From: Treponema sp.
GTDB lineage: Bacteria; Spirochaetota; Spirochaetia; Treponematales; Breznakiellaceae
Reading direction: 5' to 3'
NCBI GenBank assembly: GCA_031266255.1
Contig: JAISBK010000115.1
Coordinates: 1-32,252 of the forward strand
DNA length: 32,252 bases
Part shown: in pieces, positions 5,554 to 24,975 of the stretch
Position numbering within the stretch: the first letter of the stretch is position 1
Layout of the letters: the number at the start of each line of letters is the position of its first letter
Position numbers and translations under genes: made by a program
The notes under the pieces: model-generated
Databases searched by the model: none
Seen by the model: only the letters and a program-made list of their open reading frames with translations
Told to the model about the DNA's origin: nothing

Positions 5554-5582
5554 CACCTGCGGTGGGCAACGTGGGGGGCCTT

Positions 5583-5650: not shown

Positions 5651-5714
5651 TGCCTTGAACCCTGCCTAAGAAAAAGATATGGTAGAATTTACCCAATACT
5701 ATGGAGGCTCCTCT

Positions 5715-6362
5715 ATGATAATTAGTCGTGTTATGAGCAAAAATCCGGTTTTTGTGCACCCCGATATTTCGGTACACGATGCCCGCTCCCTCATGGATAA
5801 GGAAAAAATAGGCCGGCTGCCTGTGCTGGATAAGAATCAGCGGTTGGTGGGCATCGTAACCCGGAAGGATCTGCTGAGGGCTGGTCCTTCCCTGGCCACG
5901 AGCCTTGATATATATGAAATAAGTTATCTGCTTTCTAAGCTCAAGGTTGAAAAGATTATGGTAAAGCAGGTTATCACCGTAACAGAAAACGAGGTGGTGG
6001 AGGAAGCCGCGCGGATCATGGCGGATAAGGACATAAGCTGCCTTCCGGTGATGCGAGGATCCCTCCTTGTGGGCATTATCACCGGAACCGATCTCCTCCA
6101 GGTGTTTATCCATGCCTTTGGCGGCCGCCACCCAGGAGTGCGGATTACCCTATCCATGAGCGAACGACCAGGTCAGTTGGCAAAATTAGCCGGGACCATC
6201 GCAGAAGGGGGAGGTAACATCGTGTCTTTTGTTTCGTCTGAAGGGGATGACCTCTCACGCCGGAGAGGAACTTGTAAAATCTCCGGCATGAGCCGAGCAG
6301 CGGTTGAAGCCATTGTCAAAACGATTCCTGAAGCGGAATTGGAAGATATCAGGGAAACATGA
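5715..6362 (+). CDS. CBS-domain pair protein (AcuB-like, with C-terminal ACT-like region)
   Basis: MIISRVMSKNPVFVHPDISVHDARSLMDKEKIGRLPVLDKNQRLVGIVTRKDLL repeated as a second CBS; C-term RITLSMSERPGQLAKLAGTIAEGGGNIVSF. SD ggagg upstream of ATG 5715. Confidence 0.85.
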   Translation: MIISRVMSKNPVFVHPDISVHDARSLMDKEKIGRLPVLDKNQRLVGIVTRKDLLRAGPSLATSLDIYEISYLLSKLKVEKIMVKQVITVTENEVVEEAARIMADKDISCLPVMRGSLLVGIITGTDLLQVFIHAFGGRHPGVRITLSMSERPGQLAKLAGTIAEGGGNIVSFVSSEGDDLSRRRGTCKISGMSRAAVEAIVKTIPEAELEDIRET

Positions 6363-6392
6363 GCTCCTCTAGGGTGTTGTCTACATACTATC

Positions 6393-6419
6393 TAAAGAAA
6401 TGTTTTTTTTAACCGATTA
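6393..6419 (+). promoter_or_regulatory. Putative sigma-28 (FliA) promoter for the flagellar operon
   Basis: TAAAGAAA-N11-ACCGATTA versus consensus TAAAGTTT-N11-GCCGATAA; about 24 bp upstream of the flbB GTG. Confidence 0.5.
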
Positions 6420-6442
6420 GATAATAAGATAAGGAGATTGAG

Positions 6443-7075
6443 GTGGCCCCACTCGGAAAATCACGGGTTCTTGGCAAGATAATTGTACTCGTATTGCTCA
6501 TCATAGTGCTTGTAGGTGGAGGACTTGTGTGGTTCGATTATCTCAATGTTGTAGATGCTAAGACCCTTTTAGCCCCCCTCTACCGTTTCATGGGCCGAGA
6601 AGGCCGGAGTACCAATACGCTTGAGGATGATGCATTGCTTTCTCTGGATGCGGAACGGCTTGCCATACGGCTGGAAGCCTTGGAACTGCGTAGTCTTGAG
6701 TTGGAAAAACAGGAACAGGATCTTCAGAGCCGGCGGGGTGAAATAGAACAAATGGCCCAGGCATTGGAAGAGCGGCAGAAATCCTTGGATGAACGGGAGA
6801 ATTCTTTCAACGCGCTTGTGCAAGCCGCTGAAACGAAAAGTAACAATGTCGAACAGGTTGCCCGGTACTTGACCGGTATGCCTCCCCAGCAAGCAGTGGG
6901 TATCATTGTCGAGATGGAAGATCAGGATACTATTGATGTATTCAGGAAGGCTGAAGAGCTGGCCCAGGCAGAAGGAACCGCCTCTATTGTCTCTTATTGG
7001 ATGTCCCTCCTTCCTGCGGAACGAGCAGCGGAGTTACAACGAAAGATGGTGGGAAGACCTGCTACGCTTAACTAA
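6443..7075 (+). CDS. flbB: Periplasmic-flagellar protein FlbB (MotE-like coiled coil)
   Basis: N-terminal TM, coiled coil (LEALELRSLELEKQEQDLQSRRGEIEQMAQALEERQ), then VARYLTGMPPQQAVGIIVEMEDQDTIDVFRKAEELAQAEGTASIVSYWMSLLP. GTG start with AAGGAG SD. First gene of the cluster. Confidence 0.8.
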   Translation: MAPLGKSRVLGKIIVLVLLIIVLVGGGLVWFDYLNVVDAKTLLAPLYRFMGREGRSTNTLEDDALLSLDAERLAIRLEALELRSLELEKQEQDLQSRRGEIEQMAQALEERQKSLDERENSFNALVQAAETKSNNVEQVARYLTGMPPQQAVGIIVEMEDQDTIDVFRKAEELAQAEGTASIVSYWMSLLPAERAAELQRKMVGRPATLN

Positions 7076-7170: not shown

Positions 7171-8640
7171 GTGATGATGCAGGTATCTCCCCAGATGGAT
7201 AGTTCGAGTAGTTCTGTTAAGGGTATGAACGAAATGGAGCAACGTGGAGAATCCCAATCAGTTAACTCCACCAACTCCATGCAGGTTCAGGGAAAGTCCC
7301 TTAAACAGGGCAAACTTGGGGTCTTTGGCCGGATCCTTGAGGGATTGGTTCGGAATACACAAGGAGGAACTGGTTCTAAACCGGCTGTTTTGGGGAAAGT
7401 CGATGGGCAGATCTCAGAAGAAATACTCACCGATGAAGTGTTGAGGAATTCCGGTAAGAAAAATCAGAAAAAAAAGGTCAGCCTCTCCAGTGGAATAACC
7501 CAGGAAGAGGGTAAACCCCATTCTGGCGGCTTACAGGATCGCAACCGGCCAAGGGCTGATAAAACAGATCGGGGAGCGTTATTGGCGGTTCAGGGAGAAC
7601 AGGGTCGTGAACCGCTGGTTCCTCAGATACCGTTGCAGAAAAAAGACCACCTTCCGGTAAACAAGACCCATCTTGTCTTGGCCCCAGGTTCCCGGAAAGA
7701 AACCGGTTCCCCGGCTGTGCTTGTACAGACTAAGGCCACGATGCAGGAACCAGGTTCCACAAAGGATATGGCTAAGCTCAAGGCCGATAGTCGGGAAACC
7801 CTGGATCGTGCCGGTTCTGAAAAAGCAGACGCTCGCAGGATCTCTCGAATAAGTCAGCCGATACGCACAGAGGACCAGCTTAGGGTTGCTCCGGTTCTTC
7901 GGCAGCAGGCAGGGGTCAATGAAGAAGTTACCCAGAAGGGCCTCAAGGCTTTGGATTCCAAGACCCGGGATAAACGCCGGGATCGGATTGAGCTTCGGGA
8001 TATTCATTTCAGGGAAGGGGCTGCTTCGGGGTCTCTGACTTCTGGGGATGCAAAATCAGGGGTAGAAACCAAGACCCTCGAACTTACCGTTGAACTTCGT
8101 GCCGATACCCAAGATCAAAAAACGGTACTCAATGCACGAGAGCCCTCTGTCACCAGCAGTTTCGAGGATCTCCTTGCCAGGGAACTCTCCCAAAATCTCA
8201 ACGAAGCTATTGTCCGGCAAGCCCAGGTCCTGTTGCGGGACGGGGGCGAAGGAACAATACGACTTTCTCTCAGACCGGAATCTTTGGGAAATGTAAAGGT
8301 ACATCTTGAATTGGCCGACAAGAAGATAATAGGGCATATCATCGTAGAAAGTAATGAGGCGCTCCGGGCATTTGAACGGGAAATTCATTCTTTAGAACAG
8401 GCATTTAAAGATTCGGGTTTTGGTGAGACCAGTCTTGACACGGCCTTGGCATCGGGAAGTGATGCAGACCCCGGAGATTCCCAAAGAAGGGAAGCTGAAA
8501 CAGGGCCTTTCTTTTCAGAACGCTTTGCCGCTTCTACCTACGATGCAGGTTCGGAGCAGATCGGGGAATCAGGGATAAGGATGCTGGCAGCCGGAAATGG
8601 TGCTTCCCCAGAACATATCCCGATCAATATGCTGGTATAA
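7171..8640 (+). CDS. fliK: Flagellar hook-length control protein FliK
   Basis: Long polar N-terminus; C-terminal Flg_hook signature (LRDGGEGTIRLSLRPESLGNVKVHLELADKKIIGHIIVESNEALRAFEREIHSLEQAFKDSGF); directly upstream of flgD/flgE. Confidence 0.85.
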   Translation: MMMQVSPQMDSSSSSVKGMNEMEQRGESQSVNSTNSMQVQGKSLKQGKLGVFGRILEGLVRNTQGGTGSKPAVLGKVDGQISEEILTDEVLRNSGKKNQKKKVSLSSGITQEEGKPHSGGLQDRNRPRADKTDRGALLAVQGEQGREPLVPQIPLQKKDHLPVNKTHLVLAPGSRKETGSPAVLVQTKATMQEPGSTKDMAKLKADSRETLDRAGSEKADARRISRISQPIRTEDQLRVAPVLRQQAGVNEEVTQKGLKALDSKTRDKRRDRIELRDIHFREGAASGSLTSGDAKSGVETKTLELTVELRADTQDQKTVLNAREPSVTSSFEDLLARELSQNLNEAIVRQAQVLLRDGGEGTIRLSLRPESLGNVKVHLELADKKIIGHIIVESNEALRAFEREIHSLEQAFKDSGFGETSLDTALASGSDADPGDSQRREAETGPFFSERFAASTYDAGSEQIGESGIRMLAAGNGASPEHIPINMLV

Positions 8641-8655: not shown

Positions 8656-9093
8656 ATGGAGCTTCAAGCGACGCTTAGTTCACAAGAGCAGGTAGAGATT
8701 GCCCAAGCGGTGAAGGAATACAACAGCCGGATCAATCAAGGGAAGAATCCCCAGCAAAATTTGGGGAAAGACGATTTTCTCAAGATTCTTATTGCCCAGC
8801 TCTCCTATCAGGATCCTACGGCTCCTATGGAAGATAAGGAATTTATCGCTCAGATGGCCCAGTTTTCTACTTTGGATCAGATGACCAGTATGGCCACTGA
8901 TTTTTCCCGGCTTGCGGCAATCGTTTCAGGGTCCGAAGCAACCGGCGCCTTGGGAAAATCTGTAGAAGTGGCGGTAGGGGATCAGGTTGTCCTGGGTACG
9001 GTTAAGGCAGTAACCCGGGAAACGGTTCCTGAAATTTTGGTAAATGGTTCCTATTATCCGTGGGATCAGGTAATTAAGGTATTTGAGGAATAG
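8656..9093 (+). CDS. flgD: Flagellar hook assembly (capping) protein FlgD
   Basis: [41 protein letters not shown]. Confidence 0.95.
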
Positions 9094-9130
9094 TGCAAAC
9101 TAACCTTTAGGCTATGGAGTATAGTGCGAT

Positions 9131-10531
9131 ATGATGCGATCATTGTTTGCCGGCGTATCGGGCCTGCAGAATCATCAAACTCGAATGGATGTGATTGGGA
9201 ATAACATTGCCAATATTAATACGGTGGGGTTCAAGAAGGGACGGGTTAATTTTCAAGACCTGTTTTCTCAGCAGCTTCAAGGGGCGTCCCGGCCTACCGA
9301 GGACCTGGGTGGGGTAAATCCTAAAGAGGTGGGACTTGGTATGTCTGTCGCCTCTATTGATACGGTCCATACAGGGGGTTCCTTTCAAACAACAGGAGTA
9401 GGGACCGATCTGGCGATCCAAGGTACGGGTTTTTTTGTATTAAAAGAAGGGGCTAATTCCTATTATACCAGGGCAGGGGCCTTCAATACGGATGAACTAG
9501 GAACCTTGGTGAATCCTGCTAATGGGATGAAGGTGCAGGGTTGGATGGCTCAAGACATCCAGGGAGTGCAGACCCTGGATGTTTCTCGGGATGTGGAAAA
9601 CCTGATAATTCCGGTTGGGTCTAAGGATCCGGCCCGGGCTACCACTATGGTAAACTTTGCCTGTAACCTGGATAAACGGATCCCTGAAATTCCCGAAGGG
9701 GCTACTGCCTTGGATATTCAGCGGGGAACCTGGAATACGAGCATCAAGATCTACGATACTTTTGGAGAGGAGCATATCCTCCAGGTGGAGTTTACCCGGG
9801 TTCCGGGAACCGCTAACAGTTGGAATGCCACGGTGGCAGTAGATCCTCAGGCTGAGGTAAACACCAATACCGCTATAGGGATTGGGGAAGATGCTCCTGC
9901 AGCAGGGGAGGGCGCGGCCTTTACGGTGAATTTCTCCAATAACGGCACCCTCCTCAGTGCAGTAGACGGAGCCGGGAACGAATCAGGCGCGGCAGGGAAT
10001 GTGATCATGAACGTAGCCTTTGATGTGCAGAACACGGACCCTGATGCAGATGGTGCACAGGTGCGTCAAGAATTTGCCCTGAACCTCGGTACGGTGGGAG
10101 GGTTGGTCAATTCTATTACCCAATATGCGGAAGCCAGTTCCTCTAAGGCGGTGATGCAGGATGGGTACACAATGGGCTATCTGGATAATTTCAAGATCGA
10201 TGCCAGCGGGATCATCACCGGGGTCTATTCTAACGGATCTAACCGGACCATTGGTCAGATTGCCATTGCCAGTTTCACCAACCAGGGAGGTTTGGAAAAA
10301 GCCGGGGAGAACGCCTATGTGGTTTCTACCAATTCAGGTGCGGCCAACATTGGGCCTTCGGGAATTGCGGGAAAGGGCAAGATCGTTGCCGGGGCATTGG
10401 AGATGTCCAACGTGGATATGGCTGAACAGTTTACCGACATGATCGTAACCCAACGGGGGTTTCAAGCCAACTCCAGGACTATCCAGACTGCGGATCAGCT
10501 TTTGCAAGAACTGCTGAGCCTCAAGCGATAA
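9131..10531 (+). CDS. flgE: Flagellar hook protein FlgE
   Basis: [48 protein letters not shown]-term [44 protein letters not shown]. Confidence 0.97.
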
Positions 10532-10544
10532 CGAGTGCATCTAT

Positions 10545-10742
10545 ATGATTAAAGTAACCCGACTTGACGGAACAGAGTACTATATTAACCCGCACCAGAT
10601 CGAATCCATGGAACTTAGACCGGATACGACGATTTTAATGTTATCCGGGAAGTATTTAGTGGTGCGGGAGACAGCAGTGGCAGTTATAGAGCGCATTATT
10701 GCATACCGTCGGCAGATAGGCGCCTTCAAAAACGAGGAGTAA
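10545..10742 (+). CDS. flbD: Flagellar protein FlbD
   Basis: MIKVTRLDGTEYYINPHQIESMELRPDTTILMLSGKYLVVRETAVAVIERI. Confidence 0.92.
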   Translation: MIKVTRLDGTEYYINPHQIESMELRPDTTILMLSGKYLVVRETAVAVIERIIAYRRQIGAFKNEE

Positions 10743-10750
10743 ATACCTTT

Positions 10751-11533
10751 ATGAATCTTTCGACCATAATTGGAATAGTCGGTTGTTTTGCTATGGTTGT
10801 TATGGCTATTTTCACCTCCGGCGGTTCCATCATATTATACCTTGATTTTCCTTCGTTCTTGATGACCGTGGTTGGTTCGTATCTGGCCCTTTTTATCTTT
10901 TGCTCTGTTCAGGAAACCATCGGGCTTTTTGCCACCATAGGGCTCAGTATGAAGCAGGCGGCGTTTAACGAGGAGGGGGTCATCACCAAGCTTCTTGCCT
11001 TTTCCGACAAGGCGAGGCGGGAAGGACTCTTGGCTTTGGAAGAAGAATTAGAAGACCTGGACGATGAGTTTATGAAGAAGGGGATGCGCCTGGTGGTAGA
11101 CGGTACTGATGGGGCAATCATTCGGGAACTGATGGAGAATGAGTTGAGTCAAATCCAGGAACGGCATATGAATAAAATCTCCGTGGTCAATATGTGGGGT
11201 ACGGTGGCTCCAGGACTTGGGATGATAGGAACCGTAGTTGGTCTCATCGCCATGTTAAAAAACTTGGAAGACAAAAGCGCCTTGGGGCCTAATATGGCAG
11301 TTGCCCTGTTGACCACCCTCTACGGGGCTTTGATTGCCAACATAGTGGCGATCCCCCTGGCGGGAAAACTAAAAGCCCGAGATGCTCTGGAAGTCAAAGT
11401 CAAGGAAATGGAAATTGAGGGGATTCTATCGATTCAAGCCGGGGAAAATACCCGGGTTTTGGCTACGAAGCTCCTTTCTTATCTTAACCCAATCCTTCGG
11501 AAGAAAGTGGAACAAGAAGTGCTGAGGGATTAG
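10751..11533 (+). CDS. motA: Flagellar motor stator protein MotA
   Basis: WGTVAPGLGMIGTVVGLIAMLKNLEDKSALGPNMAVALLTTLYGALIANIVAIPLAGKL. Confidence 0.96.
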   Translation: MNLSTIIGIVGCFAMVVMAIFTSGGSIILYLDFPSFLMTVVGSYLALFIFCSVQETIGLFATIGLSMKQAAFNEEGVITKLLAFSDKARREGLLALEEELEDLDDEFMKKGMRLVVDGTDGAIIRELMENELSQIQERHMNKISVVNMWGTVAPGLGMIGTVVGLIAMLKNLEDKSALGPNMAVALLTTLYGALIANIVAIPLAGKLKARDALEVKVKEMEIEGILSIQAGENTRVLATKLLSYLNPILRKKVEQEVLRD

Positions 11534-11592
11534 TGTGGTTTGTTTCTGTTTCTCGATGGTTATAGGGATGATAAAGGGTAAAGAAGGATAAT

Positions 11593-12321
11593 ATGGCACG
11601 GAAAAAAAAAGAAGCGGAAGCCGCAAAAGGGGACTGGATCGTAACCTATTCTGACATGGTTACCTTGTTGCTCTGTTTCTTTGTCGCTCTTTTTGATGCA
11701 AGTGAAGTAGATCCCGGGCAAATGTCCGCGTTGCTTTCTGCACTCTCTAATATAGGGATGGGGTCTTCCACCGGAGGAGAGACCTTATCCGCGGGTAAAA
11801 GTGTGGAGTTGGGGAATACCATTAATTCCTTGCCCTCTATGGATAGAGGGCGGTTTTTAGGTCAGGCCCTGCGACGGGCGATGAGTCTTTTTAGTCCAGA
11901 AGTAAAATCGAATAAGATCCGGATCACCCATGATGAACGGGGACTGGTCATTAATCTTGCATCGGATGCTTTTTTTGCGCCTGCCAGTGCCAGAATAAAC
12001 ATAGAAGAAACCCGGGATATACTGGTTCGGTTGGCAGGACTTTTTAATTCCGAGGAAGTCCAGGGTAGAAAATTCAGGATTGAAGGGCATACTGATGCGG
12101 TTCCGGTAGATCCGGAGGGTCCTTGGGAATCGAACTGGGAACTTTCCACTGCCCGGTCTATCGCGGTGTTGCATTATCTAACGGATTTAGGGGTCGAAGA
12201 AAAACGTTTTCAGGTGGCAGGCTTTGCCGATACTATGCCGATAAGTAAAAATGACACGCCGGAAGGCCGGGCCTATAATCGGCGGGTAGATATCATTATA
12301 TTGGATGATGGGCACTTATAA
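11593..12321 (+). CDS. motB: Flagellar motor stator protein MotB
   Basis: GDWIVTYSDMVTLLLCFFVALF (TM with Asp) and OmpA-like domain IEGHTDAVPV...NWELSTARSIAVLHYL...NRRVDIII. Confidence 0.95.
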   Translation: MARKKKEAEAAKGDWIVTYSDMVTLLLCFFVALFDASEVDPGQMSALLSALSNIGMGSSTGGETLSAGKSVELGNTINSLPSMDRGRFLGQALRRAMSLFSPEVKSNKIRITHDERGLVINLASDAFFAPASARINIEETRDILVRLAGLFNSEEVQGRKFRIEGHTDAVPVDPEGPWESNWELSTARSIAVLHYLTDLGVEEKRFQVAGFADTMPISKNDTPEGRAYNRRVDIIILDDGHL

Positions 12322-12384
12322 CCAAGTTTGTATAAAATAGTATTTTGGTATAAAGTAAAGATATTGAAATGGAGGTAACAGGGC

Positions 12385-12942
12385 ATGGCTGAGGAACAAG
12401 CAACTGAGAATCTGGAAGAGGGTTCTCCAGAGGAAGGGGGAGCTGCTAAGAAAAAATCTTCCCGCTTAATCGCTTTTTTGCCTCATGTGCTTAAATTTGT
12501 AGCGATAGGACTGGGAGCACTGATACTTATCGTAACGGTAGTGGTGATTACCTTTAGCATTCTCAATAAAGGAGGAAGATCTCAGACCGTAGTTCCTGAG
12601 AATTCCCCGTATATTGGGACCAGGCCCCAATATTCTATGTTTAGCGCCATTGGTTTGATCCGGACACGTACCAAGGATCCGACTCCTTATGGGGTGGTGG
12701 TAGAAATGATTATTGGGTATGATTTAAATAATGCTCAGGCTGCTACAGAATTAACCGGACGGTTATATGAATTGCGGGACTTTGTGCGCAGTTATTTCAG
12801 CAGTAAATATGCAGAGGAACTGTTGCCTGAAAATGAGGCCAGGTTAAAACAGGAGATCATAGAACTCCTCAATACCCGGGTGCTTAATACCGCAAAGGTA
12901 CGAACGATCTTGTTTAATCAGCTTGACGCCATGGAGATGTAG
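12385..12942 (+). CDS. fliL: Flagellar basal body-associated protein FliL
   Basis: Single TM followed by FliL-like domain (RDFVRSYFSSKYAEELLPENEARLKQEIIELLNTRVLNTAKVRTILFNQLDAMEM); located between motB and fliM; SD GGAGG. Confidence 0.88.
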   Translation: MAEEQATENLEEGSPEEGGAAKKKSSRLIAFLPHVLKFVAIGLGALILIVTVVVITFSILNKGGRSQTVVPENSPYIGTRPQYSMFSAIGLIRTRTKDPTPYGVVVEMIIGYDLNNAQAATELTGRLYELRDFVRSYFSSKYAEELLPENEARLKQEIIELLNTRVLNTAKVRTILFNQLDAMEM

Positions 12943-12947
12943 GGCAC

Positions 12948-13064
12948 ATGGATTGCTGGGGGGCTTTGAAAGCGTCTAATGGGTTATTGGTGTATAGAGA
13001 GGTAACCCGTCAAACGTTTGAGGTTGGTTTACTGTTTTACCGGGTTGTAAAGGAAAGAGACTGA
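12948..13064 (+). CDS. Possible small ORF (38 aa) between fliL and fliM
   Basis: ATG 6 nt after the fliL stop; MDCWGALKASNGLLVYREVTRQTFEVGLLFYRVVKERD*. No strong SD; function and translation unproven. Confidence 0.25.
   Translation: MDCWGALKASNGLLVYREVTRQTFEVGLLFYRVVKERD
13010..13021. repeat. Perfect 12-bp palindrome TCAAACGTTTGA
   Basis: Read directly in the fliL-fliM gap. Confidence 0.5.
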
Positions 13065-13092
13065 GCCGAACACGCGGTACGGGTGTTCGGCT
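13064..13092 (+). other. Stem-loop in the fliL-fliM intergenic region (10-bp perfect stem, 9-nt loop)
   Basis: AGCCGAACAC-gcggtacgg-GTGTTCGGCT; no downstream T-tract, so not a classical intrinsic terminator. Confidence 0.6.
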
Positions 13093-13102
13093 GAATTGAG
13101 GT

Positions 13103-13136
13103 AATCGAATCGGGGTAACCTAGATACCATTCGATT
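13103..13136 (+). other. Second stem-loop upstream of fliM
   Basis: AATCGAAT-cgg-GGTA-acctaga-TACC-ATTCGATT: 8-bp plus 4-bp paired arms with a 3-nt bulge. Confidence 0.5.
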
Positions 13137-13169
13137 GAATTTTCATAAGAGGTGGTTTAGAATACGGAT

Positions 13170-14201
13170 ATGACTGAAGTTCTTTCTCAAAATGAAATAG
13201 ATCAGTTACTAAGTGCTATCAATGCTGGAGATACCGAAACTGAGGATTTCAAGCCCGCGGCAGATATCCGTAAAATAAAGATATATGATTTTAAGCGGCC
13301 TGATAAATTCTCTAAAGAGCAGATCCGAACGGTTTCAATCATGCATGAGACCTTTGCCCGGCTCACCACGACGGCCCTTTCCGCAAATCTGCGGAGTATG
13401 GTCCATGTCCATGTGGCATCGGTGGATCAGCTCACCTATGAGGAATTTATTCGCTCTATTCCGACCCCCACTACCCTGGCAATTATCAATATGGATCCTT
13501 TAAAGGGGAATGCTATTCTTGAAATTGATCCGGCCATAACCTTTTCTATTATTGACCGTCTCTTTGGTGGGACCGGGGTAGGTACCAAGGCCCAGCATGA
13601 ACTTACGGATATTGAGACATCGGTTATGGAAGGAATTATTGTGAGGATATTGGGGAATATGCGGGAGGCATGGACCACGGTAATAGACCTGCGGCCCAGG
13701 CTTGGTCAGATCGATACCAATCCTCAATTTGCCCAGATCGTACCTCCTACGGAAATGGTGGTGCTTGTTACTTTGGAGACTAAGGTAGGCGAGGTGGAGG
13801 GTATGATGAATTTCTGTATACCCTACCTGACTATTGAGCCGATAATCGGTAAACTTTCGGCCCAGTTCTGGTATTCCGCGGTCACGCGAAGGGGAACCAC
13901 AGAGAATCTGAATATCCTCAAGGAAAAGTTGGCAAGCGTCGATGTTAATGTAGTAGCTGAAATAGGGACGATTCAAGTACCGATACGGGATGTATTGAAT
14001 CTTCAAGCAGGGGATGTGATCTGTTTATACGATACCAAGGTGGGAGATCCTTATTCCCTCAATATTGGTAACAAAAAAAAGTTTCTGTGTCGGCCAGGGA
14101 TTATTGGAAAAAAAATGGCGGTACAGGTTATTAAAAAGGTAGCGGAGATCAAACAAGAAGATTTTATAGAGTTTGCGTCTGAAGGGGAGGAAACGATATG
14201 A
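13170..14201 (+). CDS. fliM: Flagellar motor switch protein FliM
   Basis: VLSQNEIDQLLSAI, YDFKRPDKFSKEQIRTVSIMHETFARLTTTALSANLRSMVHVHVASVDQLTYEEFIRSIP. Confidence 0.97.
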   Translation: MTEVLSQNEIDQLLSAINAGDTETEDFKPAADIRKIKIYDFKRPDKFSKEQIRTVSIMHETFARLTTTALSANLRSMVHVHVASVDQLTYEEFIRSIPTPTTLAIINMDPLKGNAILEIDPAITFSIIDRLFGGTGVGTKAQHELTDIETSVMEGIIVRILGNMREAWTTVIDLRPRLGQIDTNPQFAQIVPPTEMVVLVTLETKVGEVEGMMNFCIPYLTIEPIIGKLSAQFWYSAVTRRGTTENLNILKEKLASVDVNVVAEIGTIQVPIRDVLNLQAGDVICLYDTKVGDPYSLNIGNKKKFLCRPGIIGKKMAVQVIKKVAEIKQEDFIEFASEGEETI

Positions 14202-15247
14202 GTGATGGCACACTTTCGCAGGCTGAACTTGATGCATTATTGGCCGGGGGAGGTGAGAGTTCGGTAACGGTTGCAGGGGGTAACACCCACGAACTGCACG
14301 TGTTGCAAGATTTTCTTGTTTCTTCGGTGGATAGCCTGAGTACTAATTTTGCCCAATTGACTGCCACTGAAGTCTCCTTCAAAGGACCTGAGGTATCCTT
14401 CACCAACCAGGATACGTTACTTGAACAGCTTCCTGATATCGTTACGGTGGTTAAAGCGGATTTTAATGCGGGCTTCCCTGGTGAACACCTATTTATTATG
14501 GGGGAGAACACGGCTAAGGCCATTGCGGCACGTATGACTCAAGAAGAGGATATTCAGATGGACGCTATGGCCCTCTCGGTAATTGGAGAGTTGGTGTCTA
14601 ATCTGGTGGGAACCCAAATTACGGCGTTAACTAAACAGACCGGTAACAAGTCAATTGCATCGGTTTCTCCTGAGGCAAGTAATGTACCTAAAGCGGTAGC
14701 TGCCTTACCGCGAGGTGATTTTTTAAGCGCACTCTATCAGCTTGATCTAGGAGATGGAACTACACACCAATTATGGGAAATATATGGTTCTCGTGTATCA
14801 GAAAGTATTGCCCGTTCATTGAGCGAGATTAACGCCCCACCTGCTGTATCTCCGCCACATCAAGAGAACAGGGCTATGTCTGGTAGAGGAGGGGGGATGT
14901 CAGGAATGGGTAATAGTGGAATGATAGGGCAGCCGACGCAGGTACAATCAGTACAGTTTCCCGGCCTTACCCCGCACCAAACGGCTCAAGAGCAAGGAAA
15001 CATCGGTCTTATCATGGATGTTTTCATGGAGATGACCGTAGAGTTGGGGCGTACCAAGAAACTTATCAAGGAAATTTTGGGAATGGGTGAAGGTACAATC
15101 ATTGAGTTGGATAAACTTGCCGGTGAACCGGTGGATATTTTAGTAAATCATAAACTTATTGCTAAAGGTGAAGTGGTAGTTATTGATGAAAATTTCGGTG
15201 TTCGGGTCACAGAAATTGTTTCTTCGGTAGAACGTATACATGAGTGA
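14198..15247 (+). CDS. fliY: Flagellar motor switch protein FliN/FliY
   Basis: N-term LSQAELDALLAGG; CheC-like middle; Gly/Met-rich linker; C-term SpoA/FliN domain (MDVFMEMTVELGRTKKLIKEILGMGEGTIIELDKLAGEPVDILVNHKLIAKGEVVVIDENFGVRVTEI). ATGA overlap with fliM. Confidence 0.93.
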   Translation: MSDGTLSQAELDALLAGGGESSVTVAGGNTHELHVLQDFLVSSVDSLSTNFAQLTATEVSFKGPEVSFTNQDTLLEQLPDIVTVVKADFNAGFPGEHLFIMGENTAKAIAARMTQEEDIQMDAMALSVIGELVSNLVGTQITALTKQTGNKSIASVSPEASNVPKAVAALPRGDFLSALYQLDLGDGTTHQLWEIYGSRVSESIARSLSEINAPPAVSPPHQENRAMSGRGGGMSGMGNSGMIGQPTQVQSVQFPGLTPHQTAQEQGNIGLIMDVFMEMTVELGRTKKLIKEILGMGEGTIIELDKLAGEPVDILVNHKLIAKGEVVVIDENFGVRVTEIVSSVERIHE

Positions 15248-15406
15248 TCTGGTTTGAACCGTGGCAGTGCATCGTTTCGTAAGCGATGATTGTCAGCATG
15301 TATTTATGCAAAAGGAAGCACTTTTCTCCATCTAGGATAGGCTTGGTGTTGGTTTTTGTAGTTCATTGGGGAGGGGGAAAAACTGGGATACGTTCGTATA
15401 ATTACA

Positions 15407-16018
15407 GTGATTATGGTACTTATGGGTAGCCTTTTGCCAGGTAGTAGTGGATTATTTGCACAAACTTCAGAGGCTGAGTCTGGAGGGATGAAATTTACCG
15501 ACCCTCCGATAGCTTCGGTTCGTTCTGAAGAGCAGGCGATCCCCCTGGGACCAGGGTCCACGGCTGATCTCCTTTCTGGTCAAGGGGCGGTTTCTTTTTT
15601 TACAATCCTTCGGATGATCCTGGTTCTTGCTTTGGCAGCAGGGGCTATTTATGGGATTGTGTTTTTTTTAAAACGGATTTCCCGTCCCCAAGAACAGAAA
15701 GATCCTCATCTGCAGGTATTGGCAGGGGTGCATCTCGGTTCCAATCGGTTTGCCCATGTAGTATCCCTTGGTGCTCAGGCTTGGCTTTTAGGATCCGCTG
15801 AGGGGGGGGTTTCCCTTATAGCAGAGATAACGGATAGAGAAACCATAGACGCCATGCTCTTGGATACATCTCGGAAGCATGCTGAAACAGGAAGGGGTAA
15901 ATTGCTTGACTTTTCACAGGTGCTTCGTCGTTTAGCAGGAGAAGGAGGGCCAGATCCTCAAGCCGGACTCAAAGCAGAAAATGTCCGTAAGCGACGAGAA
16001 CACTTAAAGGGGCTCTAA
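15407..16018 (+). CDS. fliO: Flagellar biosynthesis protein FliO/FliZ (true start may be an upstream in-frame CTG at 15383)
   Basis: Signal-peptide-like N-terminus, one TM (ILRMILVLALAAGAIYGIVFFLKRI), VLAGVHLGSNRFAHVVSLGAQAWLLGSAEGGVSLIAEI; located immediately before fliP. Confidence 0.8.
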   Translation: MIMVLMGSLLPGSSGLFAQTSEAESGGMKFTDPPIASVRSEEQAIPLGPGSTADLLSGQGAVSFFTILRMILVLALAAGAIYGIVFFLKRISRPQEQKDPHLQVLAGVHLGSNRFAHVVSLGAQAWLLGSAEGGVSLIAEITDRETIDAMLLDTSRKHAETGRGKLLDFSQVLRRLAGEGGPDPQAGLKAENVRKRREHLKGL

Positions 16019-16019
16019 G

Positions 16020-16844
16020 GTGTATCAACGGGTTACGTTCTTACGGGTAGTTTTTTTGGGGATCTGGTGTATTCTGGGAATAGGTAACATGATTCATGCT
16101 CAAACCTTTCCCGATATAGGAACCTCCGGAACCATGGCTATCCCGGCTCCTCCAGCAAGTCCCGTAATCCCGTTTATTGATCTTTCGATCCGGAACCCTG
16201 AAACCGGGCAAGAAGTGGCTTTTTCCCTCCAGCTTCTCCTGCTCGTTACGGTTCTTTCCTTAGCTCCCAGTATCATCATCCTGATGACCAGTTTTTTGCG
16301 GATTTCCATTGTCTTGGATTTCATCAAGCGGGCCTTATCACTGCAACAGGTTCCTCCGAATCAGGTAATCTTGGGGATATCGCTGTTTTTGACGATCTTC
16401 ATCATGTGGCCCACCTTTGAAACGATTTACGAAGATTCTGTACAGCCTTTGGCTGCAGGAACTATTTCCGTGGAGGAAGCCTATCGAGGGGCTGAAGGGC
16501 CCTTGCGGATGTTTATGTATCGTCAAATGCAGAATCATCCGGATAATATCAGGCTGTTTATGGCTATGCGGGGATTGGAACGGCCAGAGACCTTGGCGGA
16601 TGTGCCTACCTATGTGTTGATTCCGGCTTTCATCTTGAATGAATTAACCGTAGCTTTCAAGATAGGGATACTCCTCTTTATTCCCTTTATTGTGATCGAT
16701 ATGGTGGTAGCCAGCGCGCTCATGTCTATGGGGATGATCATGCTGCCTCCGGTGATGATTTCTATGCCCTTTAAGCTCATCTTGTTCATTCTTGTTGATG
16801 GGTGGGGACTTTTGACGGATCAGCTGATCCGCTCTTTTATATAG
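16020..16844 (+). CDS. fliP: Flagellar export apparatus protein FliP
   Basis: LLLVTVLSLAPSIIILMTSFLRISIVLDFIKRALSLQQVPPNQVILGISLFLTIFIMWP; GTG start; signal peptide. Confidence 0.97.
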   Translation: MYQRVTFLRVVFLGIWCILGIGNMIHAQTFPDIGTSGTMAIPAPPASPVIPFIDLSIRNPETGQEVAFSLQLLLLVTVLSLAPSIIILMTSFLRISIVLDFIKRALSLQQVPPNQVILGISLFLTIFIMWPTFETIYEDSVQPLAAGTISVEEAYRGAEGPLRMFMYRQMQNHPDNIRLFMAMRGLERPETLADVPTYVLIPAFILNELTVAFKIGILLFIPFIVIDMVVASALMSMGMIMLPPVMISMPFKLILFILVDGWGLLTDQLIRSFI

Positions 16845-16853
16845 GAGGCAGGG

Positions 16854-17123
16854 ATGAGTATCGGCACCATAACCGCCCTCTTGCGAGGCGGCATCCTGCA
16901 AGTTCTGTTGCTGGCGGCTCCCCTGCTTTTTTCAGCCCTGGTGGTTGGCCTGGTAGTAGCGATACTCCAAGCTACTACCTCGATCCAAGAACAGACCCTT
17001 ACCTTTGTTCCTAAAATTATTGCTATCCTGGTGGTGTTGGCATTTTTGGGAGGATGGATGTTTTCCTCTTTGGGGGATTATACGATCCAGTTATTCCGGA
17101 TGATTCCGGCCATGGCACGGTAG
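16854..17123 (+). CDS. fliQ: Flagellar export apparatus protein FliQ
   Basis: 89 aa, two TMs, LVVAILQATTSIQEQTLTFVPKIIAILVV. Confidence 0.96.
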   Translation: MSIGTITALLRGGILQVLLLAAPLLFSALVVGLVVAILQATTSIQEQTLTFVPKIIAILVVLAFLGGWMFSSLGDYTIQLFRMIPAMAR

Positions 17124-17153
17124 CAGAGCCATGTGAAAAAAGTATGAAAAAAT

Positions 17154-17978
17154 ATGCTTGAAGATCTGCTGATCCATGCTCCGGTTTTTATCCTGATAGC
17201 GAGCAGGGCCTTAGTCATGATTGAAACTGCTCCGCTTCTGTCCTCTGGGGCGATTCCCCAGGTGGCCAAGATTGCCTTAGCCGGCTTTGTTGCATATACG
17301 GCCTTCCCTTTAGCAGAGCATACCCTCGGGGCCGTGATGATAGAAGGAGGGCTCTATAGCCTGAATTTTTTGCTTATGGTGATAGGAGAAGGTATTATCG
17401 GCCTCATTATAGGTTTTTTTCTTACTATTATCTTTTCAGCCTTTGCTACGGCAGGGCAATTTTTCTCCCTCCAGATGGGTTTTGGGGCTTCAGAAACCTT
17501 TGATCCCCTCGCTCAGACAGAAAATCCCCTTATGGGCCAATACCTGAACCTGGTAGCCATGTTGGTTTTTCTTTCTATAGGGGGTTTACGAATGCTCTTT
17601 CTTGAAGGTTTTTGGCGTTCCCTGGAATCCATCAGTATCATACACCTCATCGAAGGCCGGGATGCGGTGGTAGGCATGATTCTTTCAGGGCTCTCCCGGT
17701 TGTTTCTGGATGCTATTGTTATTTCCCTGCCGATTTTAGGTACCCTCTTTTTGACGTCCCTTTCGACCGGGCTTATTTCCAAGGCAGCCCCGCAGATCAA
17801 TATTCTCTCGGAAGGTTTTCCCATATCCATCACCGTGGCTTTTGTGCTGATCTTTGCTACCATGCCGTTCATGGTGGAAGCCTTTAGCCGGGTGGTGGAT
17901 GCGGGCTTCCAGACCCTGGAGACCCTCTATAGCCGGATAGGGCTTCAAATCAGTACTTCTGGGGGAGGTTCGGTATGA
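17154..17978 (+). CDS. fliR: Flagellar export apparatus protein FliR
   Basis: RALVMIETAPLLSSGAIPQVAKIALAGFVAY, GEGIIGLIIGFFLTIIFSAFATAGQFFSLQMGFG. Confidence 0.95.
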   Translation: MLEDLLIHAPVFILIASRALVMIETAPLLSSGAIPQVAKIALAGFVAYTAFPLAEHTLGAVMIEGGLYSLNFLLMVIGEGIIGLIIGFFLTIIFSAFATAGQFFSLQMGFGASETFDPLAQTENPLMGQYLNLVAMLVFLSIGGLRMLFLEGFWRSLESISIIHLIEGRDAVVGMILSGLSRLFLDAIVISLPILGTLFLTSLSTGLISKAAPQINILSEGFPISITVAFVLIFATMPFMVEAFSRVVDAGFQTLETLYSRIGLQISTSGGGSV

Positions 17979-19123
17979 AGCGGTTTTATGATACCCAATC
18001 GGCCCTGAAAACCGCTTTGACCATGGATCTCCAATGGTTTGCTGCGGAAGATGAGGGCCGCACTGAAGAGCCTTCGGAATATAAGATCCGTAGAACCCGG
18101 GAAGAGGAGGGCAGAGTTGCCAAGAGTCAGGAACTCATCGGCGCCTTGGTGCTCCTCTTACCCGCGTTGGGTATCCTCTTTTTAGCTCCTTTTATGCTGC
18201 GGACTTGTGTAGAAATGGTGCGGTTTTTTCTGCTCCGGCTGACTGCCTTGGATCCTGCCAAAGATAGGATCATCTCAGGGCTCGTGTTTTCTTATTATGT
18301 ACGGTTGAGCCTCCCTATCCTGGCCATAGCTCTGGTGGCGGCCCTCTTTTCAAACCTCGTGCAGACCGGCTTACTGTTTACCACCAAGCCCTTAGTGCCC
18401 AAATTTTCCAAGATCGTCCCCCATTTTGGGCGTTATTTTCAGAAAACCCTTTTTTCTGCAGAAGGGCTATTTAACTTTTTTAAGTCAATTGTTAAAATGA
18501 TGATTATCGGGGGCGTAGCTTTCTTCCTTATCCGGTCCCGGATAGCAGAGCTGGCAAACCTGCAAACCGCGAGTTTATGGTTGGGGATACAAACCGTGGC
18601 TTCCTTGGCCATACGGATACTTATCATCTCGGCTTTGCTCTTGTTATTGCTTGCTATTCCGGATTATATGTTCCAGCGTTGGCAGTATCGGGAGTCCCTC
18701 AAGATGACCAAACAGGAGGTTAAGGAAGAGCACAAGATGTATGAGGGGGACCCTTTGATCAAGTCCCGGCTCCGAAGCCGTATGCGGGAGATCTTGAGCC
18801 AGAATATGGCTATCAATGTGCCTAAAGCGGATGTGGTTATCACCAATCCTACCCATCTGGCGGTTGCCTTGGAATATAACCGGACCAATATGGCAGCTCC
18901 CCAAGTTACTGCTCGGGGAGAAGATGAAATGGCCTTTAGGATCCGCCGTATTGCCCAGGATCATGGGGTGCCCATTGTGGAGAATAAACCTCTGGCCCGG
19001 GCGCTTTATGCGGAGACCAAAGTCGGTGATATGGTCCCAGAAGCCTACTGGGAAATTGTGGCAATGGTATTGAGTAAGGTGATGAAAATTAACGAAGAAC
19101 GCCGGCGAGCCCAGCGTATATAA
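17975..19123 (+). CDS. flhB: Flagellar export switch protein FlhB
   Basis: EEPSEYKIRRTREEEGRVAKSQEL, autocleavage motif NPTH (VVITNPTHLAVALEY), GVPIVENKPLARALY. ATGA overlap with fliR. Confidence 0.97.
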   Translation: MKRFYDTQSALKTALTMDLQWFAAEDEGRTEEPSEYKIRRTREEEGRVAKSQELIGALVLLLPALGILFLAPFMLRTCVEMVRFFLLRLTALDPAKDRIISGLVFSYYVRLSLPILAIALVAALFSNLVQTGLLFTTKPLVPKFSKIVPHFGRYFQKTLFSAEGLFNFFKSIVKMMIIGGVAFFLIRSRIAELANLQTASLWLGIQTVASLAIRILIISALLLLLLAIPDYMFQRWQYRESLKMTKQEVKEEHKMYEGDPLIKSRLRSRMREILSQNMAINVPKADVVITNPTHLAVALEYNRTNMAAPQVTARGEDEMAFRIRRIAQDHGVPIVENKPLARALYAETKVGDMVPEAYWEIVAMVLSKVMKINEERRRAQRI

Positions 19124-19189
19124 GCCGGTCACTCCTCTTGAGGGAAGGAGGACTCGGTCGATGAATGGAAGAGGAGAGCTAAGTACAGT

Positions 19190-21307
19190 ATGGCTAATGG
19201 GGTACAAGGGAATAATACAAGTAAACCGAGTAATTTCATAGGAGATTCCCGAGATTTCTTCATTGCCGTTGGCGCGGTGATGGTGGTGATCATGATCATT
19301 ATACCGTTGCCCACGGTCTTGCTGGATACCTTCATGGCCCTGAACCTGGTGCTCTCCCTGCTCATTCTCCTCATCGTGCTCTACACGAAAAAGGCCACGG
19401 ATTTCAATGTTTTTCCTACGGTTTTATTGGTTGTTACGGTTTTTGGCTTAGCTTTAAATATCTCTTCCACTCGGCTCATCCTCACCAAGGGGGCGCAGTT
19501 TGACGGACGGATGATCCGGGCCTTTTCTACTTTTGTGGTTGGTTCCGGAGGGACCGAAGGCCTTGTGGTAGGATTCATCATTTTTATTGCTATTATCGCG
19601 GTCCAGGTAGTGGTCATCACCAAGGGGGCTACACGAATTTGTGAAGTGGCGGCTCGGTTTGCCCTGGATGCCCTGCCGGGCAAGCAAATGGCCATTGATG
19701 GACTTTACAGCTCGGGCGCCATCACGGAAGAGGAATCTCGAATCCGAAAACAGGAGCTTCAGAAAGAAGTGGATTTCTATGGCGCGATGGATGGTTCGAG
19801 TAAATTTGTTTCTGGTAATGTTAAGATAGGGATATTCATAACCGCCATTAATATTCTTGGGGGGATCATCATTGGTACGGCTCTCCATGGAGAACCGATT
19901 AGCGCAGCCATAGGTACGTATATTGCCTTTTCTGTAGGGGACGGCTTGCTCTCCCAGTTTCCCGCGCTTTTGGTATCCACTGCTACGGGTATTGCAGTTA
20001 CCCGTTCCGCTTCCAACGGCACGTTCGGGGAAGATATTTCGATCCAGTTTTCCCGGGATGCCCGGATCTATTGGATAGGCGCTTTTATACTGCTTGTGTT
20101 TGCCTTACTTCCGGGCTTTCCCTGGTATGTGCTCATTCCCATGGCTTTTGCGTTAGGGTTCTTCGCCTTTAAATTGGGACAGTCTCAGCAGCGAAAGGCG
20201 AATTTTAATGCTATGATGCACAAGACTGCGGATCCCAAGAAACCTCAGCCAGGAGATACCGGGGAACTCTCTCCTGTAGTACCGTTAGATACCTTATCCC
20301 TTGAATTAGGGTATGGACTCATCCCTTTGGTGGATAAGGATAAGGGAGCCGAACTGTTAGAGCGGGTTCAGGGGATCCGCAAACAATCTGCCTTGGAGTT
20401 GGGGCTGGTCATACCCAAGATTCGGATCATTGATAATATGTTGCTTGAACCCTCGGAATATTGTTTCAAAATCCGGGGAGTTGATACGGGCCGGGGTAAG
20501 ATCCGGATTGGCTATTATCTCTGTATGAATCCCGGGAACATACGGGAAGAGATAGTCGGTGAAAAAACCCGGGAACCGGTTTTTGGCCTTCCCGCCTTAT
20601 GGGTAAGCGAAGATAAGCGGGATGAAGCTGAACGGGCTGGGTACACCGTGGTAGATCCCCCCTCAATGATCGCCACCCATTTGACTGAGATCATCCGGCG
20701 TCATGCTTCGGAAATCTTGGGTCGTCAGGAAACCCAGGCCATTCTGGATACCCTGCGGCGGGAATACCCCGCGCTGGTAGAGGAGGCTCAGAGCCAGAAA
20801 GCATTGAATGTCGGTGAAATCCAAAAAGTGCTCCAGGGGCTGCTCAAAGAACAGATCTCCATTCGTAACATGGTAACTATTTTGGAAGCCTTGGCGGATT
20901 TTGCTCCGGTTACCCGGGACACCCGGTTCCTAACGGAAAAGGCCCGACAGGCCCTCGGCAGGCAGATCTGTCATCGCTATGCGGATGATCGCTTAGTACT
21001 CCATGTACTCACCCTGGATCCTGGATTGGAACAGCAGATCATCGACAGCCGTGTGGAAACCAGTTCTGGGCTTGTGTCGGCCTTGGATCCTGCGGTTCAA
21101 AATGCTTGGATAAAGGCTCTTACCCGGTCAGTTGCAGCGGTCCAAGAACATGGGTGGTACCCGATTATTGTCTGTTCAGAGTCTGCTCGGTACTTGGTCA
21201 AGTCTTCTACCGACCGAGATCTCCCGGAGTTGGTCGTGCTCTCAGTACCAGAGATCGTAGGGGATGTTACCTTAGAATCGGTAGGGGTCATAAGGCTGGA
21301 CCATTAA
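19190..21307 (+). CDS. flhA: Flagellar export gate protein FlhA
   Basis: 705 aa; IIPLPTVLLDTFMALNLVLSLLILLIVLYTKKATDFNVFPTVLLVVTVFGLALNISSTRLIL. Confidence 0.97.
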   Translation: MANGVQGNNTSKPSNFIGDSRDFFIAVGAVMVVIMIIIPLPTVLLDTFMALNLVLSLLILLIVLYTKKATDFNVFPTVLLVVTVFGLALNISSTRLILTKGAQFDGRMIRAFSTFVVGSGGTEGLVVGFIIFIAIIAVQVVVITKGATRICEVAARFALDALPGKQMAIDGLYSSGAITEEESRIRKQELQKEVDFYGAMDGSSKFVSGNVKIGIFITAINILGGIIIGTALHGEPISAAIGTYIAFSVGDGLLSQFPALLVSTATGIAVTRSASNGTFGEDISIQFSRDARIYWIGAFILLVFALLPGFPWYVLIPMAFALGFFAFKLGQSQQRKANFNAMMHKTADPKKPQPGDTGELSPVVPLDTLSLELGYGLIPLVDKDKGAELLERVQGIRKQSALELGLVIPKIRIIDNMLLEPSEYCFKIRGVDTGRGKIRIGYYLCMNPGNIREEIVGEKTREPVFGLPALWVSEDKRDEAERAGYTVVDPPSMIATHLTEIIRRHASEILGRQETQAILDTLRREYPALVEEAQSQKALNVGEIQKVLQGLLKEQISIRNMVTILEALADFAPVTRDTRFLTEKARQALGRQICHRYADDRLVLHVLTLDPGLEQQIIDSRVETSSGLVSALDPAVQNAWIKALTRSVAAVQEHGWYPIIVCSESARYLVKSSTDRDLPELVVLSVPEIVGDVTLESVGVIRLDH

Positions 21308-21325
21308 GGAGCAAACAGAAAAGCA

Positions 21326-22600
21326 ATGGAATATTTTACTGAACAAGCCTTGACCTATACTGAATGTCTCAATAAGATTCGGATGAAGTATGGAGAGCGT
21401 TTTTCGATACTGAACCATAAAAGTATTCGCATGGGAGGATTTTTAGGGTTTTTCGCTAAAGATGGGGTAGAAATCAGTGGGTTTACTTCAAACAACGTGG
21501 TAAAGAACATCAATCTGGGCAGTATGGAGCCTGCTGCTGCTCGTCCAAGTTCAGGGCCGGATCCCGTAGGACCGGTTCGGAAATCGCCCCTGGATTTTGA
21601 TGAGGAGAAACGCAAGGTCCTGGATGCAGCAAATACGGCGAATAAAGGGGAAAGCGGCTGGCAGATGGTCTTAAAAGAGGTACAAACTCTCAAGGAACGG
21701 ATCGATACAAGTACCGGTTCCCAAGTCCCGGAAGAACATCCTACCCTGAGCCGTATTGGGGATGTGCTGGGACACAATGATTTTTCCCTCCGCTTTAGCC
21801 ATATTATTCTGGAGCGTATTAAAAAGGAATTTTCTCTGGATGCGCTCAATGATTATAAGGCGGTGCAGGACAAGGTTATTGAATGGATTGGAGAGAGTAT
21901 CAGTATTTATAAAGAGGAAAAGTTTCAGCGCTTGCCTCGTATCATGGTTCTGGTGGGACCAACCGGAGTGGGTAAGACCACGACCATCGCAAAGTTAGCC
22001 GCGATTTTTGGGATTGGGAATGCCGATAGACGTCCCCTTTCGGTGCGGATGATCACCATCGACGCCTTTAGAATTGGCGCTAAAGAACAGATCGAAAAGT
22101 ACGGTAATATTATGGATCTTCCGGTTTCTTATGTGGAAGACTATGATGATCTCAAGAAGACTATCGCTCAATACTCGGAAGGAGTGGATCTCATCCTGGT
22201 GGATACCATTGGGAAGAGTCCCCGAGATTCCGCCCAGTTGGGAAAGATGAAGCAGCTTCTGGATGCTTGCGGAACCCAAGCAGAGTTATATCTGGCCGTG
22301 GCAGCGACCACAAAATCCAGTGATCTCAAGGAAATCCTCAGGCAGTTTGAGCCGTTCAATTATCAGTCGGTGATTATCACGAAACTGGATGAAACCATAC
22401 GGGTCGGTAATGTGATCAGTGTGCTTACGGATATGGGAAAATCCGTTTCCTATATTACCGATGGTCAGAAGGTGCCCAGCAATATACAGAAAGCTACGGT
22501 GGTTCGGTTTCTTATCAATCTTGAGGGTTTCCAGGTTAATAGAGCAAAAATCGAACGGCTTTTTCCTATTGACGAATCTGAACAAATTCAATGGAGGTAG
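21326..22600 (+). CDS. flhF: SRP-like GTPase FlhF
   Basis: MVLVGPTGVGKTTTIAKLAA, TIDAFRIGAKEQIEKYG, LILVDTIGKSPRD, TKLDETIRVGNVISV. Confidence 0.95.
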   Translation: MEYFTEQALTYTECLNKIRMKYGERFSILNHKSIRMGGFLGFFAKDGVEISGFTSNNVVKNINLGSMEPAAARPSSGPDPVGPVRKSPLDFDEEKRKVLDAANTANKGESGWQMVLKEVQTLKERIDTSTGSQVPEEHPTLSRIGDVLGHNDFSLRFSHIILERIKKEFSLDALNDYKAVQDKVIEWIGESISIYKEEKFQRLPRIMVLVGPTGVGKTTTIAKLAAIFGIGNADRRPLSVRMITIDAFRIGAKEQIEKYGNIMDLPVSYVEDYDDLKKTIAQYSEGVDLILVDTIGKSPRDSAQLGKMKQLLDACGTQAELYLAVAATTKSSDLKEILRQFEPFNYQSVIITKLDETIRVGNVISVLTDMGKSVSYITDGQKVPSNIQKATVVRFLINLEGFQVNRAKIERLFPIDESEQIQWR

Positions 22601-22602
22601 CT

Positions 22603-23496
22603 ATGGAAGATCAGGCAGAGAAACTACGGGAAATCATGCGTAAAAAAAATGACTTCCAGGAGAAACCCAAATTGGTGCAGCCCAAGGAAGTCAAGAAAAC
22701 CCGGATCATCACGATTACCAGTGGTAAGGGAGGAGTGGGAAAAACCAGTATATCCGTTAATATGGCCTTAGCCTATGCCCGAATGGGGAAGAAAGTGGTG
22801 GTCATGGATGCAGATTTGGGGCTTGCCAATGTTAATGTCATGCTCAACACGATCCCGAAGTTTAACTTGTACCATGTGATGCGTAAGCAAAAGACCATGA
22901 AGGAGATCCTCTGGGAAACTGATTACGGTATTTCTATTGTTGCCGGTGCTTCAGGGCTTTCCAAGATTGCTAATCTTACCGAAGATGAACGGCAGTATTT
23001 CATCTCTGAACTGGATTCCCTGTCCGAGGCGGATATTATTATTATTGATACCAGTGCAGGGGTTTCCAGTAATGTGCTTGATTTTATCGCTGCCGCGGAT
23101 GACGCGGTGATCATCGCTACTCCGGAGCCTACTGCCATTACCGATGCCTATGGGATCACCAAGATAATCGCCACTGAATATGAAAGCCTTACGATGGGGC
23201 TTAAGCTCGTGGTGAACCGGGTAAAAAGCGTGGTTGAGGCAAAGAAGGTAGCTGATCGGATGACCCATATTGCCGGCCAATTTTTAAACATTCGGATTGA
23301 TTATTTGGGGTTTATCTACGATGATACGATGGTTTCCCATGCGGTGCTGCGGCAGAAGCCGTTCATGGTGCTTGATGCTAAGTGTAAGGCTTCGCTCTGT
23401 ATTCAGCATATCGCAGAACGTATGGAAAAGCATGAAGTCCGGGGAGAGAACGAAGGTTTTGCCGCCATGATTCGACGTCTTTTTGGGCGGGCATAA
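22603..23496 (+). CDS. flhG: MinD/ParA-family ATPase FlhG
   Basis: ITITSGKGGVGKTSISVNMALAYARMGKKVVVMDADLGLANVNVML. ATG 22603 preceded by GGAGG. Confidence 0.93.
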   Translation: MEDQAEKLREIMRKKNDFQEKPKLVQPKEVKKTRIITITSGKGGVGKTSISVNMALAYARMGKKVVVMDADLGLANVNVMLNTIPKFNLYHVMRKQKTMKEILWETDYGISIVAGASGLSKIANLTEDERQYFISELDSLSEADIIIIDTSAGVSSNVLDFIAAADDAVIIATPEPTAITDAYGITKIIATEYESLTMGLKLVVNRVKSVVEAKKVADRMTHIAGQFLNIRIDYLGFIYDDTMVSHAVLRQKPFMVLDAKCKASLCIQHIAERMEKHEVRGENEGFAAMIRRLFGRA

Positions 23497-23548
23497 GCGT
23501 AGGGGGAATATATGTCCCGGAATTGCAAGAGAAAGGTGGATTACCAAG

Positions 23549-24186: not shown

Positions 24187-24975
24187 ATGGGGAATGTCCC
24201 CCTGGAACAGAGAAAAGAAAATGAACTTTGGGTGGAATACCGCCGAGATCGGGATTCAAAGATTCGGGAACATTTTATTAAACAATACGCCCCTTTGGTG
24301 AAGTATGTAGCTGGTAAAGTCGCGATTGGTATGCCGCATAATGTGGAGTTTGATGACCTGGTAGGTTATGGAACATTTGGACTTTTGGATGCTATTGATA
24401 AATTTGATCCTGATAAGGGGGTTAAATTTAAAACCTATGCGGTAACCCGCATTCGAGGAGCCATCTTTGATGAACTCCGTTCCATTGATTGGGTTCCCCG
24501 GTCGGTACGGCAGAAGACCCGGGAAGTTGAGGAAGCCATAGGATCCCTTGAAGCCCAGCTTGGCAGAACCGCCACTGATCATGAGATTGCCGGCTCCTTG
24601 GGGATGGACGAAGGTGAATATCTTAAAACCATGATGAAGATATCCGGTACTTCGGTTCTTTCCCTTAATGATGTGTGGTTTTCAGGGGATGAAAACGATA
24701 AAGTTTCTATTGGGGATAGTATTGAGGCTCCGGTCAGTCTCAATCCTGATGTGATTGTAGAGAAAGATGAGATCCGCCGGGTCATTGTAGAGCATATCAA
24801 TGAATTGCCGGATAAAGAAAAGAAAATTTTAGTTTTGTATTACTATGAGGATCTGACCCTCAAAGAGATAGGTCAGGTACTGGAAGTAACCGAATCCCGG
24901 GTATCTCAATTGCATACCAAGGCAATACTCAGGCTTCGGTCAAAATTAACGAATATTCGTAAGGGGATTGTATAA
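24187..24975 (+). CDS. fliA: RNA polymerase sigma factor FliA/WhiG (sigma-28)
   Basis: [97 protein letters not shown]. Confidence 0.97.

Follow-up and report, generated by a model that had tools for sequence, protein, structure and literature searches.

The site at 6393-6419 on the forward strand of the window, i.e. of the whole 32,252-nucleotide stretch of Treponema sp. DNA analysed here, is probably a sigma-28 promoter that starts an operon running from flbB to fliA and fapA, with FliA positively autoregulating its own gene. This reading of the sequence is based on the motif and its spacing, a sharply limited conserved block present throughout the genus, the constant position of fliA behind flbB, and promoters of the same type in front of other flagellar genes.

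Promoter site upstream of flbB

The site is composed of a -35 element TAAAGAAA (6393..6400, + strand), a spacer TGTTTTTTTTA of exactly 11 nt (6401..6411, +) and a -10 element ACCGATTA (6412..6419, +). The original prediction of a Shine-Dalgarno sequence and a GTG start codon behind the motif was correct: AAGGAG (6431..6436, +), conserved in the genus as AAGGAGATTGAGGTG, lies 6 nt ahead of the flbB start codon, GTG 6443, and 23 nt separate the site from this codon. In comparison to the E. coli consensus TAAAGTTT/GCCGATAA, 11 of the 16 positions match, five of eight in the -35 and six of eight in the -10 element, including the complete CCGAT core. The motif and its N11 spacing thus stand as predicted, but with these numbers of matches to call the agreement close was somewhat generous. 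The -10 element also differs from the flagellin type, [GT]CCGATA, in having T and not A at position 7 and in ending with TTA.

The exact pattern TAAAGAAA-N11-ACCGATTA was found only once in the 2.29 Mb draft genome. The shorter pattern TAAAG-N14-16-CCGAT produced 20 genome matches against 14 for the reversed control (about one per 230 kb of strand), counts too close to the control to inform on their own. When the 120 bp preceding flbB were shuffled by dinucleotides, the p-value for the sigma-28 site was approximately 0.005. Sites with a score of at least 10 numbered four in the 64.5 kb of the two window strands, corresponding to about one per 16 kb of strand, and the flbB site was the only one of the four placed intergenically before a gene. 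With a matrix trained solely on the flagellin promoters of the genus the flbB site was borderline as a single sequence (p-value ~0.05-0.13), because of its CCGATT and the AA following TAAAG. As a lone copy the motif is moderate evidence for a sigma-28 promoter, and conservation was used as the deciding test because of this borderline matrix score.

Conservation of the site within the genus

Absence of the motif from close relatives had originally been named as evidence that would speak against the promoter; it was present in all 11 congeneric genomes. The conserved block CTAAAGAAWTGTTTTTTTTAACCGATTA (CTAAAG...CCGATTA) has 26 invariant columns out of 28, while the alignment of the same genomes includes no invariant column among the 60 upstream or the 12 downstream of the block. 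CTAAAG of the -35 region, with the conserved C at 6392 preceding the element, is invariant in 11/11 genomes, the T-tract of the spacer is likewise conserved, and the elements are separated by 11 nt in every genome, within the sigma-28 class of 10-12 nt between the 8-mers. The limits of the footprint coincide with the limits of the promoter. Conservation is decisive for the reality of the site and excludes chance.

In one genome (G002) the block is intact and is separated from the ribosome-binding site by a palindromic insertion of about 60 bp; in at least one other (G005) the block has been kept although the upstream gene differs. The insertion in G002 (L012 / L168) shows an AAGTA duplication, and palindromes similar to it, GAGGCT...TTGCAAAAC, are found upstream of flbB also in L018, L024 and L029.

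Operon downstream of the site and possible transcription from upstream

The first gene of the operon, flbB (6443..7075, +), encodes the periplasmic flagellar collar protein (NF047368, 256 bits). It is followed on the same strand by a tap1-type fliK (7171..8640; PF02120) and by the ORFs of flgD, flgE, flbD, motA, motB, fliL, fliM, fliY, fliO, fliP, fliQ, fliR, flhB, flhA, flhF and flhG (8656..23496), of which flhF and flhG were named by profile models and the others by sequence reading and synteny. The gene order of this part is identical in genomes G010, G008 and G034. The ORF at 23483..24175 (+), for which no Pfam or NCBIfam match was obtained, is probably flgV because of its position between flhG and fliA, as described in PMC11607428; it is poorly conserved, with 52-62% identity within the genus. 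The sigma-28 gene fliA / whiG (24187..24975, +; NF004935 421.6 bits, TIGR02479 291.6 bits, Pfam sigma-70 r2, r3 and r4) starts 11 nt after the preceding ORF, and the next gene of the operon is fapA (24997..26961, +; PF03961, PF20250). The matches of both FlbB (NF047368) and FliA (NF004935/TIGR02479) were well above cut-off.

As predicted, fliA is located downstream of flbB on the same strand, at a distance of 17.7 kb in the window. The distance is about 18 kb, on the same contig and strand, in all ten genomes having both genes on one contig; in G005 the two are on different contigs. The genes of the run are co-directional and the gaps mostly short. Promoter-like and terminator-like sites occurred in the 18-kb run at chance frequencies according to simple scans (23 against 23.8 and 22 against 21.0 expected, respectively), and internal promoters or terminators may exist within it. 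No conserved promoter block was seen in the gaps flgE-motA (which is the flbD gene), fliL-fliM, fliY-fliO or flgV-fliA. One sigma-70 candidate (12251-12279, ATGACA-17-TATAAT) was rejected as a chance match, as it lies inside the motB coding sequence and decays in the congeners as codon variation. In-frame stop codons were present within the flbB match in approximately 15 genomes of the family (g18, g26, g49, g50, g66 and others).

In the window (5679..6362, +; PF00571), as in most congeners, a gene encoding a CBS-domain protein lies upstream of the site, co-directional with flbB and ending ~40-85 nt before the block; in the window no terminator-like site separates it from flbB. Most transcription of the operon might accordingly be sigma-70 read-through, originating with the CBS gene or at an internal promoter of that gene, which would leave the sigma-28 site as a booster similar to PD3, the weaker of two promoters in B. 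subtilis (PMC3874003). A sigma-28 loop also needs basal sigma-28 for priming. However, G005 and G006 have the block but no evident CBS gene ahead of it, no sigma-70 consensus site was found in 5500-7300, and selection has preserved 26 of the 28 bases in the sigma-28 site but none of its surroundings. We regard read-through as an unlikely main source of the transcript; it is the principal rival of sigma-28 autoregulation, or else its complement.

Sigma factor class of the site

In the genus, the promoters of flaB_a and flaB_b have CTAAAG or CTTAAG, N15-16 and [CT]CGATA, that of flgM has TAAAC-N16-TCGATA and that of flgB TAACTTT...GCCGAT, and the -10 element of the flbB site shares its spacing class with all of these. 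FlgM is encoded in 10 of the 11 congeneric genomes. In T. denticola, the 5'RACE-mapped promoter of flaB2, with -10 CCGATAA and -35 TTAA, has been assigned to sigma-28 (PMC9481697). Since the flaB, flgM and flgB promoters share its architecture with some variation, and in view of the mapped T. denticola promoter, the flbB block is on sequence grounds of the sigma-28 class in spite of its -10 element ending with TTA. An internal contrast is provided by the third flagellin gene, the second of a tandem pair (L061-L068), which has its own conserved promoter of sigma-70 type, TTGACA-N17-TATATT. Two sigma factors thereby seem to serve the flagellins of the genus, a situation known also from T. denticola. 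Their 5' leaders (L050-L068) include conserved hairpins, GGCATGGATGCC or GCAAGGATGCC, with GGA in the loop, resembling CsrA-binding sites.

The 28-bp block could instead be the binding site of another regulator and merely resemble a sigma-28 promoter. Conservation of the spacer T-tract, which sigma-28 recognition alone would not require, and the T at position 7 of the -10 element would both agree with this. On the other side, both element cores are at flagellin spacing in a conserved block fronting a flagellar operon, the same promoter class precedes flaB, flgM and flgB, and the short distance to the start codon suits a promoter, which makes another regulator very improbable. Chance resemblance, although sites of such score occur in the window at a rate of one per ~16 kb of strand, is already refuted by the sharp-edged footprint conserved in all 11 genomes and can be practically disregarded.

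Comparison with sister genera and the order

Promoter scoring covered 120 bp ahead of each gene and combined an a priori consensus score with dinucleotide shuffles. The score weights and the 11-12 nt spacers were taken from the E. coli consensus without fitting, but the scoring was not blind, as it was fixed after the flagellin promoters had been seen and the sequences upstream of flgB and flbB read by eye. Upstream of flbB, each of the 11 genomes of the genus had a sigma-28 p-value of at most 0.015 and a sigma-70 p-value of 0.67-1.0, and TTGAC was absent from this region in all of them. For the 49 other genera of the family the Fisher p-values were 2e-17 for sigma-70 and 0.027 for sigma-28, with independence overstated in both as the lineages are related. 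TTGAC was present upstream of flbB in 31 of these 49 genera, and the same place was enriched in TTGAC-N17/18-TATAAT. Also CCGATA was enriched there (12 of the 49 against 1.8 expected; L016, L182-L184, L191, L193, L224 and others), often overlapping TTGAC or situated just before TATAAT. Overlapping sigma-70 and sigma-28 promoters are possible in these genera and might offer a route for a switch.

In the FlbB tree, which did not resolve how the inner genera are related, the genus formed one clade (99/86) within the family, and the sigma-70-type lineages g15, g17, g22 and g45 branched outside the clade holding the genus. Given this branching, a derived replacement is the simplest explanation for the sigma-28 site at flbB, and judging from the promoter sequences the genus appears to have switched the promoter of its fliA operon from sigma-70 to sigma-28.

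Upstream of flgB, the 33 other lineages across the order gave a Fisher p-value of 1.6e-22 for sigma-28, independence again being overstated by the relatedness of the lineages, and no sigma-70 signal. A sigma-28-like TAAA-N15/16-GCCGAT[GA] precedes flgB across the whole order (e.g. L231, L240, L243, L245, L286 and L289), hinting that early flagellar genes may be under sigma-28 in most treponemes. The contrast originally drawn with the sigma-70-driven fla operons of other spirochaetes was accordingly upheld for the fliA-bearing half, against the sigma-70-like promoters of the sister genera and against Borrelia, which is without sigma-28. It does not extend to the flgB promoter, which is sigma-28-like widely in the order and in several families heads a superoperon reaching fliA; because of this, sigma-28 feedback onto early flagellar genes would not be unique to the genus.

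Superoperon split and proposed mechanism

In G038, flgB, flbB and fliA are on one strand within 25 kb, and the sigma-28-like site of flgB therefore heads a run including fliA. In families f2, f4 and f5, coding sequence seems to run directly up to flbB, and neither class of promoter is conspicuous before it. In the genome of the window, the flgB-fliJ half is found on a different contig, where it follows hslU and has fliJ as its last gene (names taken from the translations); the flbB-fliA half begins with the 6393-6419 site. The ancestral superoperon would have been split in the genus between fliJ and flbB, so that the first half kept the order-wide sigma-28 promoter and the second exchanged the sigma-70 type common in the sister genera for a sigma-28 promoter. 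In the host-associated treponemes (f3) the fla genes are rearranged and fliA is not downstream of flbB; some of their flbB promoters are sigma-28-like, but do not close the same loop because fliA is elsewhere.

With the transcript presumably starting at the sigma-28 site, FliA-RNA polymerase would transcribe fliA together with hook, stator and export genes, FliA thus transcribing its own gene because this is near the end of the operon. The anti-sigma factor FlgM, whose gene itself has a sigma-28-like promoter, would restrain the loop until the hook is done, and the first FliA would probably be primed by basal read-through from the CBS gene. The original proposal that sigma-28 drives its own operon gains support from the motif, its conservation and the promoters of other flagellar genes of the genus, while an unbroken transcript and its FliA dependence are presumed.

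In textbook hierarchies sigma-28 reads the late genes once the hook has been finished. If the sigma-28 promoter is the sole recognisable one for the hook, export and sigma-28 operon, this order of early and late genes would be gone and motility would become a self-sustaining switch. Motility in the genus is probably wired as such a self-reinforcing switch. More tentatively, the two operons that encode basal body, hook and export apparatus, fliA included, may be driven by sigma-28 only, forming a closed and possibly bistable or inherited loop that is primed by read-through and arose from a genus-level replacement of sigma-70 by sigma-28; we consider this full version possible but somewhat doubtful. 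The promoter swap in relation to the sister genera offers a natural comparison for how the regulation of a complex organelle is rewired.

Comparison with known systems

In enterics, export and hook genes belong to class 2. Enteric fliA is partly transcribed by sigma-28 and resembles the proposed operon in this share of sigma-28 in its own transcription; it differs in that FlhDC-dependent sigma-70 transcription dominates.

Borrelia burgdorferi has a superoperon of homologous gene order with flbB inside, and differs by its sigma-70 promoter and the loss of sigma-28. A passage of PMC11607428, citing Ge et al. 1997, reports a consensus sigma-70 promoter for the flgB superoperon, and the loss of sigma-28 from Borrelia is given in the same paper (PMC11607428). 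A Borrelia-type TTGACA-N17-TATAAT was not found upstream of flbB in the genus (0/11 for TTGAC). The order-wide sigma-28-like site of flgB suggests that Borrelia could have reached its all-sigma-70 scheme by loss, starting from a similar arrangement. T. denticola uses sigma-70 for the flaA and flaB1 operons (PMC9481697). Its mapped sigma-28 promoter of flaB2 is a likeness, the difference being that sigma-28 transcription has there been shown for flagellin genes and not for an operon bearing fliA.

A self-driven sigma operon has a known precedent in B. subtilis: sigD belongs to the fla/che operon, and the sigma-D promoter PD3 exerts feedback on this operon beside a dominant sigma-A promoter (PMC3874003). 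Both systems have a long flagellar operon with the sigma gene towards its end (penultimate in B. subtilis) and a promoter read by the same sigma factor. B. subtilis differs in its main sigma-A promoter PA and the control by SwrA and DegU, the genus being without a recognisable sigma-70 promoter, and furthermore the operon of the genus is split, so that the site precedes flbB and not flgB. The missing housekeeping promoter lowers the identity with the two-promoter design but not the likeness to its feedback branch. The flbB site would hence be a variant of a known feedback design, with added interest from the promoter swap within the family and the order-wide site of flgB.
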